A stretch of DNA of 37,207 nucleotides from a virus, in IMG/VR virus record IMGVR_UViG_3300046007_003234, positions 1 to 37,207 of that record. The stretch is one strand, 5' to 3'. Below the pieces are notes generated by a model. That model was given only the letters and a program-made list of their open reading frames with translations. It was not told the DNA's origin and ran no database searches. Of the stretch, positions 26,912 to 36,678 are shown one piece after another. A program made the position numbers and the translations under genes. Each line of letters begins with the position of its first letter. The stretch's first letter is position 1.

Positions 26912-28800
26912 TCTGGCTCGATTTTGAAACGCGGAGCGAGTGCGATCTAAAATCGATGGGCGTGTATAACTACGCCCGTCACCCCACAACAGAAGTGTTG
27001 TGTATGTCCTACGCATACAACGACGAGCCTGTGCAGACGTGGCGTCCAGGCGAGCCGTTCCCACGTTTGAACGGTCAGATCCGCGCTCATAACGCAGCGT
27101 TTGAGCGTCTGATCTTTTGGCATGTGTTAGACAAACAGATCCCGCTTGAACAGTTCTACTGCACCGCGTCGCAAGCGAGAGCGAACTGTGCGCCAGGATC
27201 GCTCGAAGACGTCGCGCGCTTTGCTGGCACAAGCATGCGTAAAGATCACCGAGGCAACTACTTGGTGCGTAAGCTCTGCATCCCGCCATTCAGCGATGAT
27301 GTGCGTTTACTGCAAGAGCTGGTAGAATATTGCGAACAAGACGTGCGTACAATGCGCGCGGCATCTAAGGCGATGCGGGAACTGACAGATGAAGAGCTGG
27401 CAGATTATCATACTAATGAGCGGATCAATGATCGCGGCGTCTTGGTTGACGTATTTCTATGCCAAGCGGCGGTTCGATTTGCGGCTGATGAACTACAGGA
27501 AATCGAACGAATCGTTCGTGAGGTTACGAACGGCGAGATTACATCAGTCCGAAGCCCTAAGATGCGACAATGGGTTCAAGATCGTGTCGGCCCCGCAGCC
27601 CTCAAGCTCATGGAGCGAGACGACAAGTATAGTATCGACAAGACGGCGCGTGCAAATCTATTGGCGATGGACGATCCTGAAGAAGTGCCGCCAGATGTTG
27701 CCGACGTTATACAGTGCGCTGACGATCTTTGGGCGTCTTCTGTAGCAAAGTTCAAGCGCCTTAACGATCTTGCCGGCGATGACCATAGAGTGCGCGGCGC
27801 GTTCGTATTCGCAGGTGGCAGCGCAACAGGCCGCGCTAGTTCGTACGGCGCGCAGGTGCATAACTTTACGCGTGTCTGTGCCGAAGATCCAGAGGCTGTG
27901 CGTCATGCGATGGTGCGCGGTCATAAGATCGTGCCTAAGTTCGGCAAGCGCGTCACTGATGTGCTCAAAGGTATGTTACGTCCTGCGATGATTCCGGCCA
28001 AGGGTCATCAGTTCGTCGTCGCCGATTGGGCGTCCATAGAAGCCCGTGTTACTCCGTGGTTGTCCATGAATGGTGATGACAAGCTCGCGTTATTTAATTC
28101 TGGACAAGATGTGTATAAGTTCAACGCATCAAAAACCTTTGGTTGTGCAATAGAAGATGTGACAAAAGACCAACGCCAGGTTGGTAAAGTGCAAGAGCTT
28201 GCGTGTGGCTTTGCCGGTGGTGTCGGCGCGTTCGCTGCGATGGGTCGTGTGTACGGAATCAATATGCCGGAAGACGAAGCCAGACGCATGGTAAACGCCT
28301 GGAGACTCGCAAATAAATGGTCAATTCCGTTTTGGAATGACATCGAGATGGCGTACACAAGAGCGCTGGCTCGCCCAGGCGAAATATTTAGCGCGGGTAG
28401 AATTAAATACTTGTTTCGCGGTCAGCATCTTTGGTATGCTCTCCCTTCGGGTCGCGTTCTTTGTTATCCCTATGCGCGGTTTGAAGATGACGAAAGCATA
28501 ACCTATGCAAAGGCATCTTGGAAACCAGCCGCAGACGCAAAGGAATGGCCCCGTGCACGGCTATGGCGTGGGCTTGCATGTGAGAATGTAACCCAAGCAG
28601 TTGCAAATGATTTATTAAGGTACAGTCTACGAAATTTAAATAATGTTGTGCTTCATGTGCATGACGAAATAGTTGTCGAATCAGATGAGCCGGAAATAGC
28701 AAGGGAGGCTATGGTTCGTGTGATGACAACGCCGCCAGATTGGGCGGTTGGATTACCACTCGCCGTTGAGGCTAATATTATGGGGCGTTATGGAAAATAG
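26908..28800 (+). CDS. Family A DNA polymerase with 3'-5' exonuclease
   Basis: The 630-residue enzyme has all expected motifs. Exonuclease: DFET at 5-8 (ExoI), HNAAFE at 61-66 (ExoII), YCEQD at 141-145 (ExoIII). Polymerase: motif A DWASIEAR near 373-380, motif B region RQVGKVQELACGFAGGVGAF near 423-442, motif C HVHDEIVVE near 583-591. There is no 5'-3' exonuclease domain, as usual for phage PolA-like enzymes. It is the replicative polymerase. Its frame overlaps the primase-helicase start by 11 bases. Confidence 0.95.
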   Translation: MIWLDFETRSECDLKSMGVYNYARHPTTEVLCMSYAYNDEPVQTWRPGEPFPRLNGQIRAHNAAFERLIFWHVLDKQIPLEQFYCTASQARANCAPGSLEDVARFAGTSMRKDHRGNYLVRKLCIPPFSDDVRLLQELVEYCEQDVRTMRAASKAMRELTDEELADYHTNERINDRGVLVDVFLCQAAVRFAADELQEIERIVREVTNGEITSVRSPKMRQWVQDRVGPAALKLMERDDKYSIDKTARANLLAMDDPEEVPPDVADVIQCADDLWASSVAKFKRLNDLAGDDHRVRGAFVFAGGSATGRASSYGAQVHNFTRVCAEDPEAVRHAMVRGHKIVPKFGKRVTDVLKGMLRPAMIPAKGHQFVVADWASIEARVTPWLSMNGDDKLALFNSGQDVYKFNASKTFGCAIEDVTKDQRQVGKVQELACGFAGGVGAFAAMGRVYGINMPEDEARRMVNAWRLANKWSIPFWNDIEMAYTRALARPGEIFSAGRIKYLFRGQHLWYALPSGRVLCYPYARFEDDESITYAKASWKPAADAKEWPRARLWRGLACENVTQAVANDLLRYSLRNLNNVVLHVHDEIVVESDEPEIAREAMVRVMTTPPDWAVGLPLAVEANIMGRYGK

Positions 28801-31087
28801 AATCTTAGACTATGTGATTAGTCTTGCCGAGATCGGCGAAACGCCGCTCATCGTGCGTCAAATTCCACTTATGCGTGGTGGAGTTCATCAACAATATTTG
28901 GACGGGTCTTATAAATATACATGGCCCGCTTACTTGCCAGCGCATAAGCGCAAGAAAGGCGAGGCGTGGTATATTAATACAGGTTCTTTTATTGTTGAGC
29001 GATTAAAAGACCGCATAAGCGCCGCGACATCAAACTGCGAATATGTGTTGTTTATGATGTTGGACGATATTGGCACCAAGTCCAAGATACCGCCGCTCAA
29101 GCCGACATGGATCGTTGAGACAAGCCCAGGCAATTTTCAATGGTGCTACGCGTTTAGAGAACAACCTACAGTAGGAGAATATTGTGCAGCCATTACCGCT
29201 ATCGCCGACGCTGGTTATACCGACAAGGGCGCTACTAATGCTGTGCGTAATTGCCGCTTGCCTGGTTCAGTTAATCTAAAGCCAGGACGCGATGCATTTA
29301 CTTGTGTAGAAATAGAATTTAATCCTATAGACTACACGTTAAAAGAAATATGCGACGCGCTCGGCGTTGTGCCAGGTGAAGCGTCTACGTCAACTTATAA
29401 ATCAATTACTGTAGAAGATACCGGCGTTGATAACGTAATGACGTGGCTCAACGAGCAAGGGCTTGTTCTGTCGCGTCCTAATCCTGCGGGGTGGATGGGC
29501 GTTGTATGTCCTAACCACGAAGAGCATAGCGATGGACAGATCGAGGGTCGGTATAAACCATTAGATAGATCTTATTGCTGTAAACACGCGCATTGCGAGC
29601 ATCTTAACAGCGAAGCTTTTCTTACCTGGGTCGCCGACAATGGTGGCCCGCGCGAGCGCCAAGGTATCCGAGGCGATCTTATTGCAAATGAATTTAAAGC
29701 AATGTTCGAAGGCATCAAGCCTAATGAGTTCTACCCAGATGTCGCGGCTGAACGCGTCGCGCAGGTAGATCGAGAAGAGGCTGGGCGTGTTGAGCGCGGT
29801 GGCTGGTATGAGCGCTTTGCATACATCGTGGATGATGACGCTTACTTCGACATGACAACGCGCAACGAGATCTCGCGCGGTTCTTTCAATGCTATCTTTC
29901 GTCATATTAACTGCACATCAGTGCATAACCCCAAGCGCCGCATCGAGGCGTCTGTTTGCTTTGACGAGAACAGACAAGAGCATAAAGCAAAATTATTGAA
30001 AGGCTTAACCTATGCGGCAGGTGAAAAGATCTTGGTGCATAAAGATGGCGAAGTCTATGGCAATAGATGGCGAGATGCACGTCCCACTGTCGCACGAACA
30101 CCTAGCGATATATCTCGCTTTACAGCCCATTGTGAACGATTGGTGGCTGATGAGGTTGAACGAAACCATTGCTACGACGTTATGGCGTTTAAGCTCCAAC
30201 ACCCAGAAGTAAAAGTAAATCACGCCGTGTTGCATGGCGGCGATGAGGGCAGCGGCAAAGATACAATGTGGGCTCCGTTCATCTGGTCTGTCTGCGGCCC
30301 GAACAATCACAATTGGGGTATCATCGATAACGAGAGCCTCTCGTCGCAGTGGGGCTATCAGCTAGAGAGCGAGATCCTTATCCTGAACGAGCTACGCGAG
30401 CCGGAGGCCCGTGAGCGCCGCGCTCTGGCTAACAAGCTCAAGCCCATTATCGCCGCGCCGCCTGACATGCTGCCCATTAACCGCAAGGGGCTGCATCCTT
30501 ATGAGATGATCAACCGGCTGCTTGTGCTCGCGTTTACCAACGATCCGATTCCGATCTCTATCCCGTCACAAGACCGCCGCTGGTTCTGCCTATGGTCTAC
30601 CGCGCCGCGTATGACACCGGCAGAGGCGCGAGAGATCTGGGCGTGGTATAAGGCTGGTGGCTTCGAGGCTATCGCTGCTTGGCTCTACGCGCGCGATGTG
30701 AGCAAGTTTAACCCTACCGCTGCGCCGCCTATTACTGATTTCAAACTTTCGCTTGTTGAGCATGGCATGTCTATGGCCGAGAGCTTTATCGTCGAGATGG
30801 CGCGCGGTCGTAAGGGCGATTTTGCAGCCGGTGTTATTGGTGGCCCATTTCACGACATCTGCGGGCGCTTGAGCGTCCAGGCCGGCAATAGCATCAAGGT
30901 GCCACAGGCAGCGCTCTTGCATGCGCTTAAGGAGGCCGGCTGGATCGATTGCGGTCGGTTGCACTCAGGTAAGCACCAGACCAAGCGTCATGTGTTCTGC
31001 GCGCCAAATATGACCAGTTACAGCAATACCGAACTTCGCAACATGTGCGAACCAACCCCAACACCAACTCTACAGGTAGTGAAATGA
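28790..31087 (+). CDS. Primase-helicase (RepB-like primase plus SF3-like helicase, DUF5906)
   Basis: I set the start at ATG 28790; an upstream ATG at 28748 lies inside the polymerase gene. The 765-residue product has a primase-like N-terminal domain (VLFMMLDDIGTKSKI, WIVETSPGNFQWCYAF, RNCRLPGSVNLKPG at about 85-165), a Cys/His cluster near 240-285 (CPNHEEHSDG, then CCKHAHCEHL) that may be a zinc site, and a helicase domain with Walker A GGDEGSGKDTMWAPF near 481, ILILNELREPEAR and LVLAFTNDPIPI with QDRRWFCLW. This is the usual fused primer synthesis and unwinding enzyme of such phages. Confidence 0.9.
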   Translation: MENRILDYVISLAEIGETPLIVRQIPLMRGGVHQQYLDGSYKYTWPAYLPAHKRKKGEAWYINTGSFIVERLKDRISAATSNCEYVLFMMLDDIGTKSKIPPLKPTWIVETSPGNFQWCYAFREQPTVGEYCAAITAIADAGYTDKGATNAVRNCRLPGSVNLKPGRDAFTCVEIEFNPIDYTLKEICDALGVVPGEASTSTYKSITVEDTGVDNVMTWLNEQGLVLSRPNPAGWMGVVCPNHEEHSDGQIEGRYKPLDRSYCCKHAHCEHLNSEAFLTWVADNGGPRERQGIRGDLIANEFKAMFEGIKPNEFYPDVAAERVAQVDREEAGRVERGGWYERFAYIVDDDAYFDMTTRNEISRGSFNAIFRHINCTSVHNPKRRIEASVCFDENRQEHKAKLLKGLTYAAGEKILVHKDGEVYGNRWRDARPTVARTPSDISRFTAHCERLVADEVERNHCYDVMAFKLQHPEVKVNHAVLHGGDEGSGKDTMWAPFIWSVCGPNNHNWGIIDNESLSSQWGYQLESEILILNELREPEARERRALANKLKPIIAAPPDMLPINRKGLHPYEMINRLLVLAFTNDPIPISIPSQDRRWFCLWSTAPRMTPAEAREIWAWYKAGGFEAIAAWLYARDVSKFNPTAAPPITDFKLSLVEHGMSMAESFIVEMARGRKGDFAAGVIGGPFHDICGRLSVQAGNSIKVPQAALLHALKEAGWIDCGRLHSGKHQTKRHVFCAPNMTSYSNTELRNMCEPTPTPTLQVVK

Positions 31088-32150: not shown

Positions 32151-32408
32151 TCAATTAGGGTTGTTACTAGGATCACAAAAGCTGATTCTTCTTTTTTCAT
32201 AGTTAATTCCACTTATAATGGTTGTATGGTCGCGCTTAAAGACGCGCGCGATTTGTGTGAAAGTCTTGTCGGTTTCTATGTGCGCGCGATACATGGCCTT
32301 GCGGCGTACAGCAATAACGCGCAGCGTGTTGTTGTAAGAGATAAGGGTTTCATACGATAACCCCGCCGCTTTCGCCTCCTCTTGTATTATTTGTTTGATT
32401 GTTTTCAT
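32151..32408 (-). CDS. Stand-alone DnaA domain IV-like DNA-binding protein
   Basis: The 85-residue product carries RRKAMYRAHIETDKTFTQIA at 35-54, RVFKRDHTTIISGINYEKRR at 55-74: the helix-turn-helix and the DHTT(I) signature by which bacterial DnaA binds DnaA boxes. The rest of DnaA (AAA+ domain) is absent, so it cannot be a full initiator on its own. In phages such proteins could mark the phage origin, compete with host DnaA, or act as regulators. ATG has no strong Shine-Dalgarno; it overlaps the previous gene by 59 bases and is likely coupled to it. Confidence 0.85.
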   Translation of the reverse strand: MKTIKQIIQEEAKAAGLSYETLISYNNTLRVIAVRRKAMYRAHIETDKTFTQIARVFKRDHTTIISGINYEKRRISFCDPSNNPN

Positions 32409-35343: not shown

Positions 35344-35528
35344 TTTCTTTTCTTTGGCGCGACGTATTGCGCCGCTTGCTGCTCATAGTGTTCTACGTGG
35401 CGCTCTAATTGCTCAACCGTCGTAAAGAACGCGCAAAATGTCATGATATCTTGGTTTATGTTAGCCTCGTGATTTTGCGCGGACGTTAGGCGCGCCATCA
35501 ATTCGGGGTTGCTTTTCCATACGCTCAT
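35331..35528 (-). CDS. Small protein with basic tail, 65 aa
   Basis: The product begins MSVWKSNPELMARLTSAQNH, then a helical middle (TFCAFFTTVEQLERHVEHYE) and a C-terminal PKKRKRRA tail, strongly basic and typical of nucleic-acid contact. GGAG lies 9 bases upstream of ATG. It is the first gene of the leftward cluster, directly under a strong-looking promoter and next to the origin-like region. That placement is where phages often encode regulators or origin-binding proteins (inference). Confidence 0.7.
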   Translation of the reverse strand: MSVWKSNPELMARLTSAQNHEANINQDIMTFCAFFTTVEQLERHVEHYEQQAAQYVAPKKRKRRA

Positions 35529-35555: not shown

Positions 35556-35583
35556 ATATTATCACACTTTCTTTGCTAGTCAA
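35556..35583 (-). promoter_or_regulatory. Candidate leftward promoter of the orphan cluster
   Basis: On the minus strand TTGACT (35583-35578) and TAATAT (35561-35556) are separated by 16 bases, 5/6 and 4/6 matches; a TG precedes the -10 region nearby. The start would be near 35549, 21 bases before the first ATG. The GCTATTGACTA core at 35587-35577 recurs in the promoter at 34995-35022. Confidence 0.6.
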
Positions 35584-35616
35584 TAGCTAATTTTGGTAAA
35601 AGCAAACTTTTTTTGT

Positions 35617-35960
35617 TTATTATGGTCATGTTTGGTCATGGTATGGTTATTTTTAGGGATCAAACGACCATGTTTAACGTGATGATATTGCGGGTTAATG
35701 TGACGTTATGGTCGTTATGGTCGTTTTATATTTATCTATTTAAAAAATATATATGTATGTATACAAGAATGTATGTACCTATCCAGTGGCAAGTTCCCCG
35801 CGAAAACATGACCAAAACGACCAAAAGCCAGAAAACTCTTTCTTTTCAGCGTTTTATTATGGTCATTACCATGACCAAGATTGACCATGGTTTGACCATA
35901 GTTTACATTCATATACCAGTGTGACCTCCGACATAAAATCACATGACCATAATGACCATG
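35617..35960. repeat. Origin-like array of 13 WTGGTCR motifs
   Basis: TGGTCA/TGGTCG occurs forward at 35623, 35633, 35709, 35718 and 35860, and in reverse (TGACCA/CGACCA) at 35665, 35809, 35818, 35872, 35882, 35893, 35944 and 35953. Many neighbours are 9-11 bases apart, about one helix turn. Four of five left copies point right, and seven of eight right copies point left, towards the AT-rich core. No gene fits here. The layout resembles an iteron-type origin or a multi-site regulator. Confidence 0.75.
35724..35764. other. AT-rich core, possible DNA unwinding element
   Basis: This 41-base stretch (TTTTATATTTATCTATTTAA, then AAAATATATATGTATGTATAC) has only about four G/C bases. It sits between the two motif arrays and would melt easily. 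Such tracts next to iterons are common origin features. Confidence 0.55.
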
Positions 35961-36053
35961 ACATTTGTCGACAATTGAATGACAACTTAGTTTATGTAAA
36001 CATGTTGACATTGGTTTACATTCAGTTCAGTTGACATTGGTTTACATTCAGTT
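35901..36053 (+). repeat. GTTTACAT copies and a tandem 24-base direct repeat
   Basis: A 24-base unit (GTTGACATTG, then GTTTACATTC, then AGTT) is repeated exactly at 36004-36027 and 36030-36053, a period of 26 bases. GTTTACATTCA also occurs at 35901-35911, and its reverse ATGTAAAC at 35994-36001. GTTGACA recurs once more at 36051. The tandem places TTGACA elements before terS and suggests a second binding-protein site set. Confidence 0.7.
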
Positions 36054-36059: not shown

Positions 36060-36153
36060 CGGGAGGGGGGCTGGGCCTTGCGTGGTCTGGGAATATCTAC
36101 GCAGGGATTACACAAACTTTTTTTTATTTTAAAAATGTGTTACAAAAGATTCT

Positions 36154-36678
36154 ATGTTTGAAAGCTTGCCATACGAGCCTCGTAAAATAGAGGCCACAGA
36201 AAAGAATCTCGAACTGATCTACGAGGCCGCGCGTAAAGGACTCAAAGGCGACGCACTCGCGTTAGCTGCCGGCATGCTGCCGGTTGAGTATCGCCGGCTG
36301 GTGCAGTTCGATCCTATTGCTGAGTATGCGGAGATCAAAGGCCGCGCAGATGGCGAGATGGAGATGGCCGGCGTATTACGCACAGCCGCGTTAAACGGCG
36401 ACACTAAAGCGGCGCTCGACATACTAAAGCATGTGCATAAGTGGACTGCGCCGCAGTCGATGCAGATCCAAGTCGAGCAACGCATATCTATATTAGCGGC
36501 GCTTGAAGAAGCGCAGACCAGAGTTATCGAAGGGCAGGTATTGGATGCAAGTGCCGATTTACTCAGCGGAAGAAGAACAGAAGCTGATGGCGACGCTGTG
36601 GAGTCCGACGCTCAAGAACGACCCGCTCGCGTTCGTGCGGCTGACCTTTCCGTGGAAGAAACCTGGGACACCGCTTGA
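36154..36678 (+). CDS. terS: Terminase small subunit
   Basis: The 174-residue product has an N-terminal helix-turn-helix-like region (LELIYEAARKGLKGDALALA, then AGMLPVEYRRLV), a helical middle (EYAEIKGRADGEMEMAGVLR, AALNGDTKAALDILKHVHKW) and an acidic C-terminus. The ALxAGMxPxxYRxLxxxDP and GDxKAALDIL patterns are typical of terminase small subunits beside this type of terL. It recognises viral DNA and regulates the large subunit. Its last 45 codons overlap the terL start in another frame and code an Asp/Glu/Ala/Arg-rich tail that may be dispensable. Confidence 0.85.
   Translation: MFESLPYEPRKIEATEKNLELIYEAARKGLKGDALALAAGMLPVEYRRLVQFDPIAEYAEIKGRADGEMEMAGVLRTAALNGDTKAALDILKHVHKWTAPQSMQIQVEQRISILAALEEAQTRVIEGQVLDASADLLSGRRTEADGDAVESDAQERPARVRAADLSVEETWDTA

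Follow-up and report, generated by a model that had tools for sequence, protein, structure and literature searches.

A converging iteron array, probably a replication origin, covaries with the predicted C-terminal winged helix of a phage primase-helicase

What is the function of the 344-bp gene-free stretch that lies near the right-hand end of the window, the whole 37.2-kb stretch of viral DNA analyzed here? The sequence-only reading had described 13 copies of a TGGTC(A/G) motif, placed 9–11 bp apart within clusters and arranged in two arrays that converge on a 41-base AT-rich tract. From this it had deduced a multi-site binding element and inferred either a replication origin or a control region for two divergent units. 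The nearest credible genes are a 65-aa ORF starting at 35528 on the minus strand and the small terminase gene (TerS) starting at 36154. Two listed ORFs, 35613–35924 (plus strand) and 35736–36011 (minus strand), cross the repeats and were taken as spurious, although this was not tested. The locus comprises the following features:

35617–35960, no strand: proposed replication origin, a converging iteron array of 13 WTGGTCR motifs with an AT-rich center (motif counts, shuffles, layout kept in relatives)
35622–35723, plus strand: left half, 5 copies, 4 of them rightward (TGGTCR on the plus strand; site list)
35724–35764, no strand: AT-rich core, 41 bp, 90% A+T, candidate unwinding element (base composition)
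35809–35959, minus strand: right half, 8 copies, 7 of them leftward (YGACCA on the plus strand; site list)
35556–35583, minus strand: sigma-70-like promoter of the leftward operon, TTGACT-16-TAATAT (sequence match; such matches are no more numerous in the region than in shuffles)

The described anatomy held up throughout. A motif scan of the window returned 13 WTGGTCR motifs between 35622 and 35959, and the site list bears out both the opposed orientation of the two halves and the 9–11 bp distances between TGGTCR copies within clusters; the length and composition of the AT-rich tract were likewise confirmed. Nor is the density matched elsewhere. WTGGTCR occurs 33 times in the whole window against 14 expected, and the 344-bp stretch holds 13 copies of TGGTCR, compared with 3 in the next densest 344 bp. 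The largest TGGTCR cluster in 300 whole-window resamplings had 4 copies, and local shuffles of the stretch gave a mean of 0.5 and a maximum of 5. GC skew, suggested earlier as a means of finding the replication start, follows gene strand in the window and did not locate an origin.

With the DnaA-like protein, the large terminase and the primase as queries, several hundred uncultured viral contigs related to the window were recovered. Gene order and strand of primase and TerS are invariant across the first set, being identical at each of the 181 loci where both genes are present. A strongly repeated 6-mer (-log10 P ≥ 6) is present upstream of TerS in 152 of 215 regions but in none of 100 shuffles. 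Array units were called by k-mer enrichment, since AT-rich and GC-rich runs had overwhelmed a simple EM motif finder. More than 150 related uncultured phages turned out to have a common layout, in which repeats converge on an AT-rich core, mostly in 9-bp steps, upstream of the small-terminase gene. Left of the core, 174 sites in relatives point rightward and 28 leftward, whereas right of it 348 point leftward and 64 rightward. Gaps between same-strand neighbors are exactly 9 bp in 255 of 384 cases, suggesting, by inference, that neighboring sites are packed side by side and not on one helical face. In 50 of 74 arrays of relatives the most AT-rich 40 bp fall between the facing halves, compared with 22% expected from gap length.

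The repeat word itself is mostly constant inside one phage and different between phages. Among the words found are TGACCA (the window's class), TTGTCCAC, TGACCCAA, GACTAT, GACGAT, GACCTA, CCTA, CGCCTAAC and TTACCCTAA. Within the window's class, some close genomes with the same wing have a partly different word (GGTCA, GGTCT), and in some relatives no clear unit was detected in the region scanned. Conservation in relatives, which had been proposed as a check, is thus divided: the layout is kept, whereas the hexamer is not, its place being taken by a word that differs by phage. Since the layout persists while the sites change in concert, and since the word covaries with one DNA-binding domain (below), the inference of a multi-site binding element is strongly supported. 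One relative, L065, has six tandem 6-bp GATCCC units at about -290 to -250 upstream of TerS, the position of the right-half iterons in its relatives. A host was sought through genome bins; only two relatives were binned, both environmental, and no host was identified.

If the word varies between phages, which protein reads it? The candidates encoded in the window are these:

28748–31087, plus strand: primase-helicase, 779 aa, with RepB_primase (residues 84–180), DUF5906 helicase (residues 495–611) and a C-terminal winged helix (Pfam, PHROG primase, NrS-1 structures by sequence and fold)
30620–31084, plus strand: C-terminal region of the same protein (residues 625–779), which includes the proposed array-binding winged-helix domain (AlphaFold mean pLDDT 81.5; covariation with the unit)
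30962–30985, plus strand: wing loop, residues 739–746 (HSGKHQTK), joining the two strands of the wing; the repeat word varies with residue 739 (covariation, AlphaFold model)
32151–32408, minus strand: stand-alone DnaA domain IV protein (PF08299), 85 aa, set aside as reader (Pfam, 1.6e-11)
36154–36678, plus strand: small terminase subunit gene TerS, named by its position before TerL; the array is always just upstream (gene order)

The clearest discrimination came from 75 related phages whose unit is either TTGTCCAC (29 phages) or TGACCC(A) (46 phages). Seven primase columns, all within residues 735–757, separate the two classes at 0.97 or better. In the same phages no column reaching 0.97 was found in TerS, TerL, the polymerase or primase residues 1–600, the best TerS column attaining 0.73. 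Physical linkage alone cannot explain the match between word and wing: TerS, at a distance of only some 0.2 kb, is far closer to the array than the wing, which is several kb off. When the unit is traced on a tree built from primase residues 1–600, 8 or more changes are required, and in each of 6 independent pairs unit and wing have switched together (p = 0.031, the minimum reachable with 6 pairs). Along the primase, AUC rises from 0.85 at residues 1–100 to 0.957 at residues 723–760 (87 non-redundant genomes). The helix bundle, to which site specificity is assigned in NrS-1, was considered as the specificity element too: once identity over residues 1–630 is removed, residues 201–300 retain little signal, 0.12 versus 0.29–0.37 for C-terminal parts, although the borders of the helix bundle were not mapped in this protein.

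The correspondence extends to a single position. At residue 739, M is paired with GACTA (4 of 4 distinct wings, in three backgrounds), K with CCAC, H with GACCA (the window), S with GACGA, either G or Y with CCTA and, in one wing type, A with CCCAA. L076 at first seemed to break the wing rule, but its word, TGACCCAC, has CCAC in common with the class whose wing L076 carries. These rules were drawn from the first set and fixed before the last two sets were analyzed. Applied to unseen arrays, they gave the right call in 66 of 66 cases, including all 32 that had a strong signal. Since 61 of these calls represent one rule (K with CCAC) and the phages are related, this support is good but not fully independent. 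The conserved layout and the covariation of word and wing are direct observations; that the C-terminal domain sets iteron specificity is a proposition supported by covariation and prediction, with no binding data.

Structural models are compatible with such a role. In the AlphaFold model, residues 676–751 run helix, strand, helix, helix, strand, loop, strand, which is the winged-helix order, and the covarying residues fall in the wing loop, residues 739–746. The C-terminal domain alone gave no confident match in a fold search against PDB (best E = 0.06), nor was the P4 origin-binding domain matched, and the term "winged helix" therefore rests on predicted topology. The C-terminal 360 residues, on the other hand, match the C-terminal region of NrS-1 (6k9c) with a fold E-value of 7e-13 over 346 alignment columns, followed by PriRep1 and D5/PrimPol-type helicases. 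Homology to the NrS-1 C-terminal helicase region is also detected by sequence (E = 9e-4).

Proximity would nominate a different reader. The array is always directly upstream of TerS, and in phage lambda the cosB repeats lie beside the TerS gene, so the array could serve in packaging, as a pac or cosB site to which the product of the adjacent gene, the small terminase subunit, binds. In that case the unit should follow the DNA-binding part of TerS, which it does not. L073 and L077 are identical over the N-terminal 100 residues of TerS, yet their units are TTGTCCAC and ATGACTA, respectively; L056, L052 and L051 likewise differ in unit although their TerS N-termini are almost the same; and, as noted above, the two big classes are not told apart by any TerS column. 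TerS as reader of the variable word is ruled out by identical N-termini accompanying different words, and a packaging function for the array retains next to no credibility. The DnaA domain IV protein, the reader favored at first, raises another possibility, namely that the array consists of diverged DnaA boxes, to be recognized by it or by host DnaA. The phage protein is present in the window and in 86 of 181 spans, Class I arrays consist of TTGTCCACA, close to the DnaA box, and L004, L007 and L011 initially suggested that the unit follows this protein, as an origin of the DnaA-oriC kind would demand. Over the whole set the unit does not follow it. The protein is missing from nine array-carrying records of 36–39 kb and from 82 spans with strong arrays. 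It is nearly identical in phages with different repeats: a single DnaA signature, GGRDHTTIMHGIKRY, accompanies GCATAA in L126 and ATCGTC in L116. Moreover, phages grouped by this signature do carry canonical TGTGGATA boxes, but at another place, the leftward promoter. We consider a DnaA-type reader very unlikely.

The remaining alternative concerns the purpose of the array: the primase-helicase, or some other phage protein, might use it to regulate the two divergent units without replication starting there. The array does sit between divergent units, with the sigma-70-like promoter of the leftward operon at its left edge, and initiators of iteron systems often also repress nearby promoters. 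Yet that promoter does not extend to most of the repeats or to the AT-rich core, covariation points to a primase-helicase and not to a regulator, and converging halves around an AT-rich tract are what an origin needs. A purely regulatory array is unlikely in our estimation, although no replication start has been mapped and a regulatory use of the sites for the divergent units is not excluded. Of the two functions originally inferred, the origin is favored because the covarying protein is the phage's own primase-helicase.

We therefore propose, with a probability of roughly 0.8, that the array is an iteron-type replication origin whose repeats are double-stranded sites for the C-terminal winged helix of the primase-helicase, with wing loop 739–746 reading the variable part. 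Binding is inferred here from covariation, replication from analogy and anatomy; opening of the strands is also an inference. Copies of the primase-helicase would load on both halves, oriented towards the AT-rich tract, which the SF3/D5-like helicase hexamer would then open; the primase domain would start synthesis and the phage family-A polymerase would extend it. Each phage would keep a private origin–initiator pair, as the joint change of repeat word and wing across the family implies.

The same logic operates in known systems, which makes an origin the most likely identity of the array. P4 alpha and SaPI Rep both bind iterons at their origins (PMC4234260, PMC7581432): the winged helix of P4 alpha binds origin repeats, after which the protein unwinds and primes (PMC4234260), and the C-terminal domain of SaPI Rep recognizes iterons (PMC7581432). 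An 8-nt site, TTTGGTTA, is required by the NrS-1 primase-polymerase and has been proposed as its origin (PMC7102993, PMC8718748). An origin of the P4/SaPI type should have multiple short iterons near the initiator gene, an AT-rich tract inside the iteron region, and an initiator that joins a helicase to a C-terminal DNA-binding domain. The iterons are present, the tract is found in the window core and in the 50 of 74 relatives' arrays mentioned above, and the initiator has DUF5906, an NrS-1-like fold and a predicted winged helix.

The differences are also considerable. P4 alpha, like the protein described here, unites primase, helicase and winged helix, but its primase is of the bacterial Toprim type and ours of the RepB_primase type, and here two facing repeat halves enclose an AT core, with a word that changes between relatives. 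SaPIs are satellites with a separate primase, whereas here primase and helicase are fused in a phage with its own polymerase, and the array lies several kb downstream, across an opposing operon. NrS-1 has a C-terminal region of the same fold, but only two copies of its site instead of a multi-copy array, and site reading was assigned to a helix bundle of the primase part, acting on single strands, whereas here it is the C-terminal part that tracks the repeats. The NrS-1 Tail domain was described as a novel fold; our results suggest what this C-terminal Tail may do in NrS-1-type primase-polymerases. Bacterial oriC similarly clusters 9-bp units beside an AT-rich unwinding tract, but its word is fixed and is read by DnaA, neither of which applies here.

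A large family of podovirus-like freshwater phages, all uncultured, can be assigned a probable origin and initiator from sequence alone. With more than 150 natural origin–initiator pairs that vary jointly in DNA word and in a short wing loop, changes of winged-helix specificity become directly testable. The joint changes and their single-residue correlates may also mean that the family holds a readable recognition code. That origin word and wing loop have repeatedly switched specificity together under such a winged-helix wing code is a tentative hypothesis, to which we give slightly less than even odds; selection against cross-recognition with co-infecting relatives or satellites may drive the switching, but this part is a guess.

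Several further observations concern the surroundings of the array. Of 32 loci in the GGRDH-signature group, 69% have canonical TGTGGATA/TATCCACA boxes close to the leftward promoter, compared with only 3% of 66 loci that lack both the DnaA domain IV protein and the TTGTCCAC unit. This suggests that the DnaA domain IV protein is a separate DnaA-box regulator, although the loci are related and the counts not independent. Some genomes have two copies of this stand-alone protein. In L008 and L098 the leftward operon includes an ORF that, judged by eye only and without a profile, resembles a polymerase sliding clamp. The leader before TerS, at about 36060–36130 in the window (GGGGGCTGGGCC...CTACGCAGGG...AACTTTTTTTTATTTT), is kept even where the array word differs and is a possible packaging site. 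In L112, an annotated homing endonuclease gene (27644–28090) separates TerS from the non-coding region found upstream of it in relatives. Finally, a second repeat, GTTGACATTGGTTTACATTCAGTT, occurs twice at 36004–36053 of the window, with a third, partial copy at 35891; it is expanded in L112, L039 and L167, which have many GTTTAC/GTAAAC copies, often as palindromic GTTTACRTAAAC.
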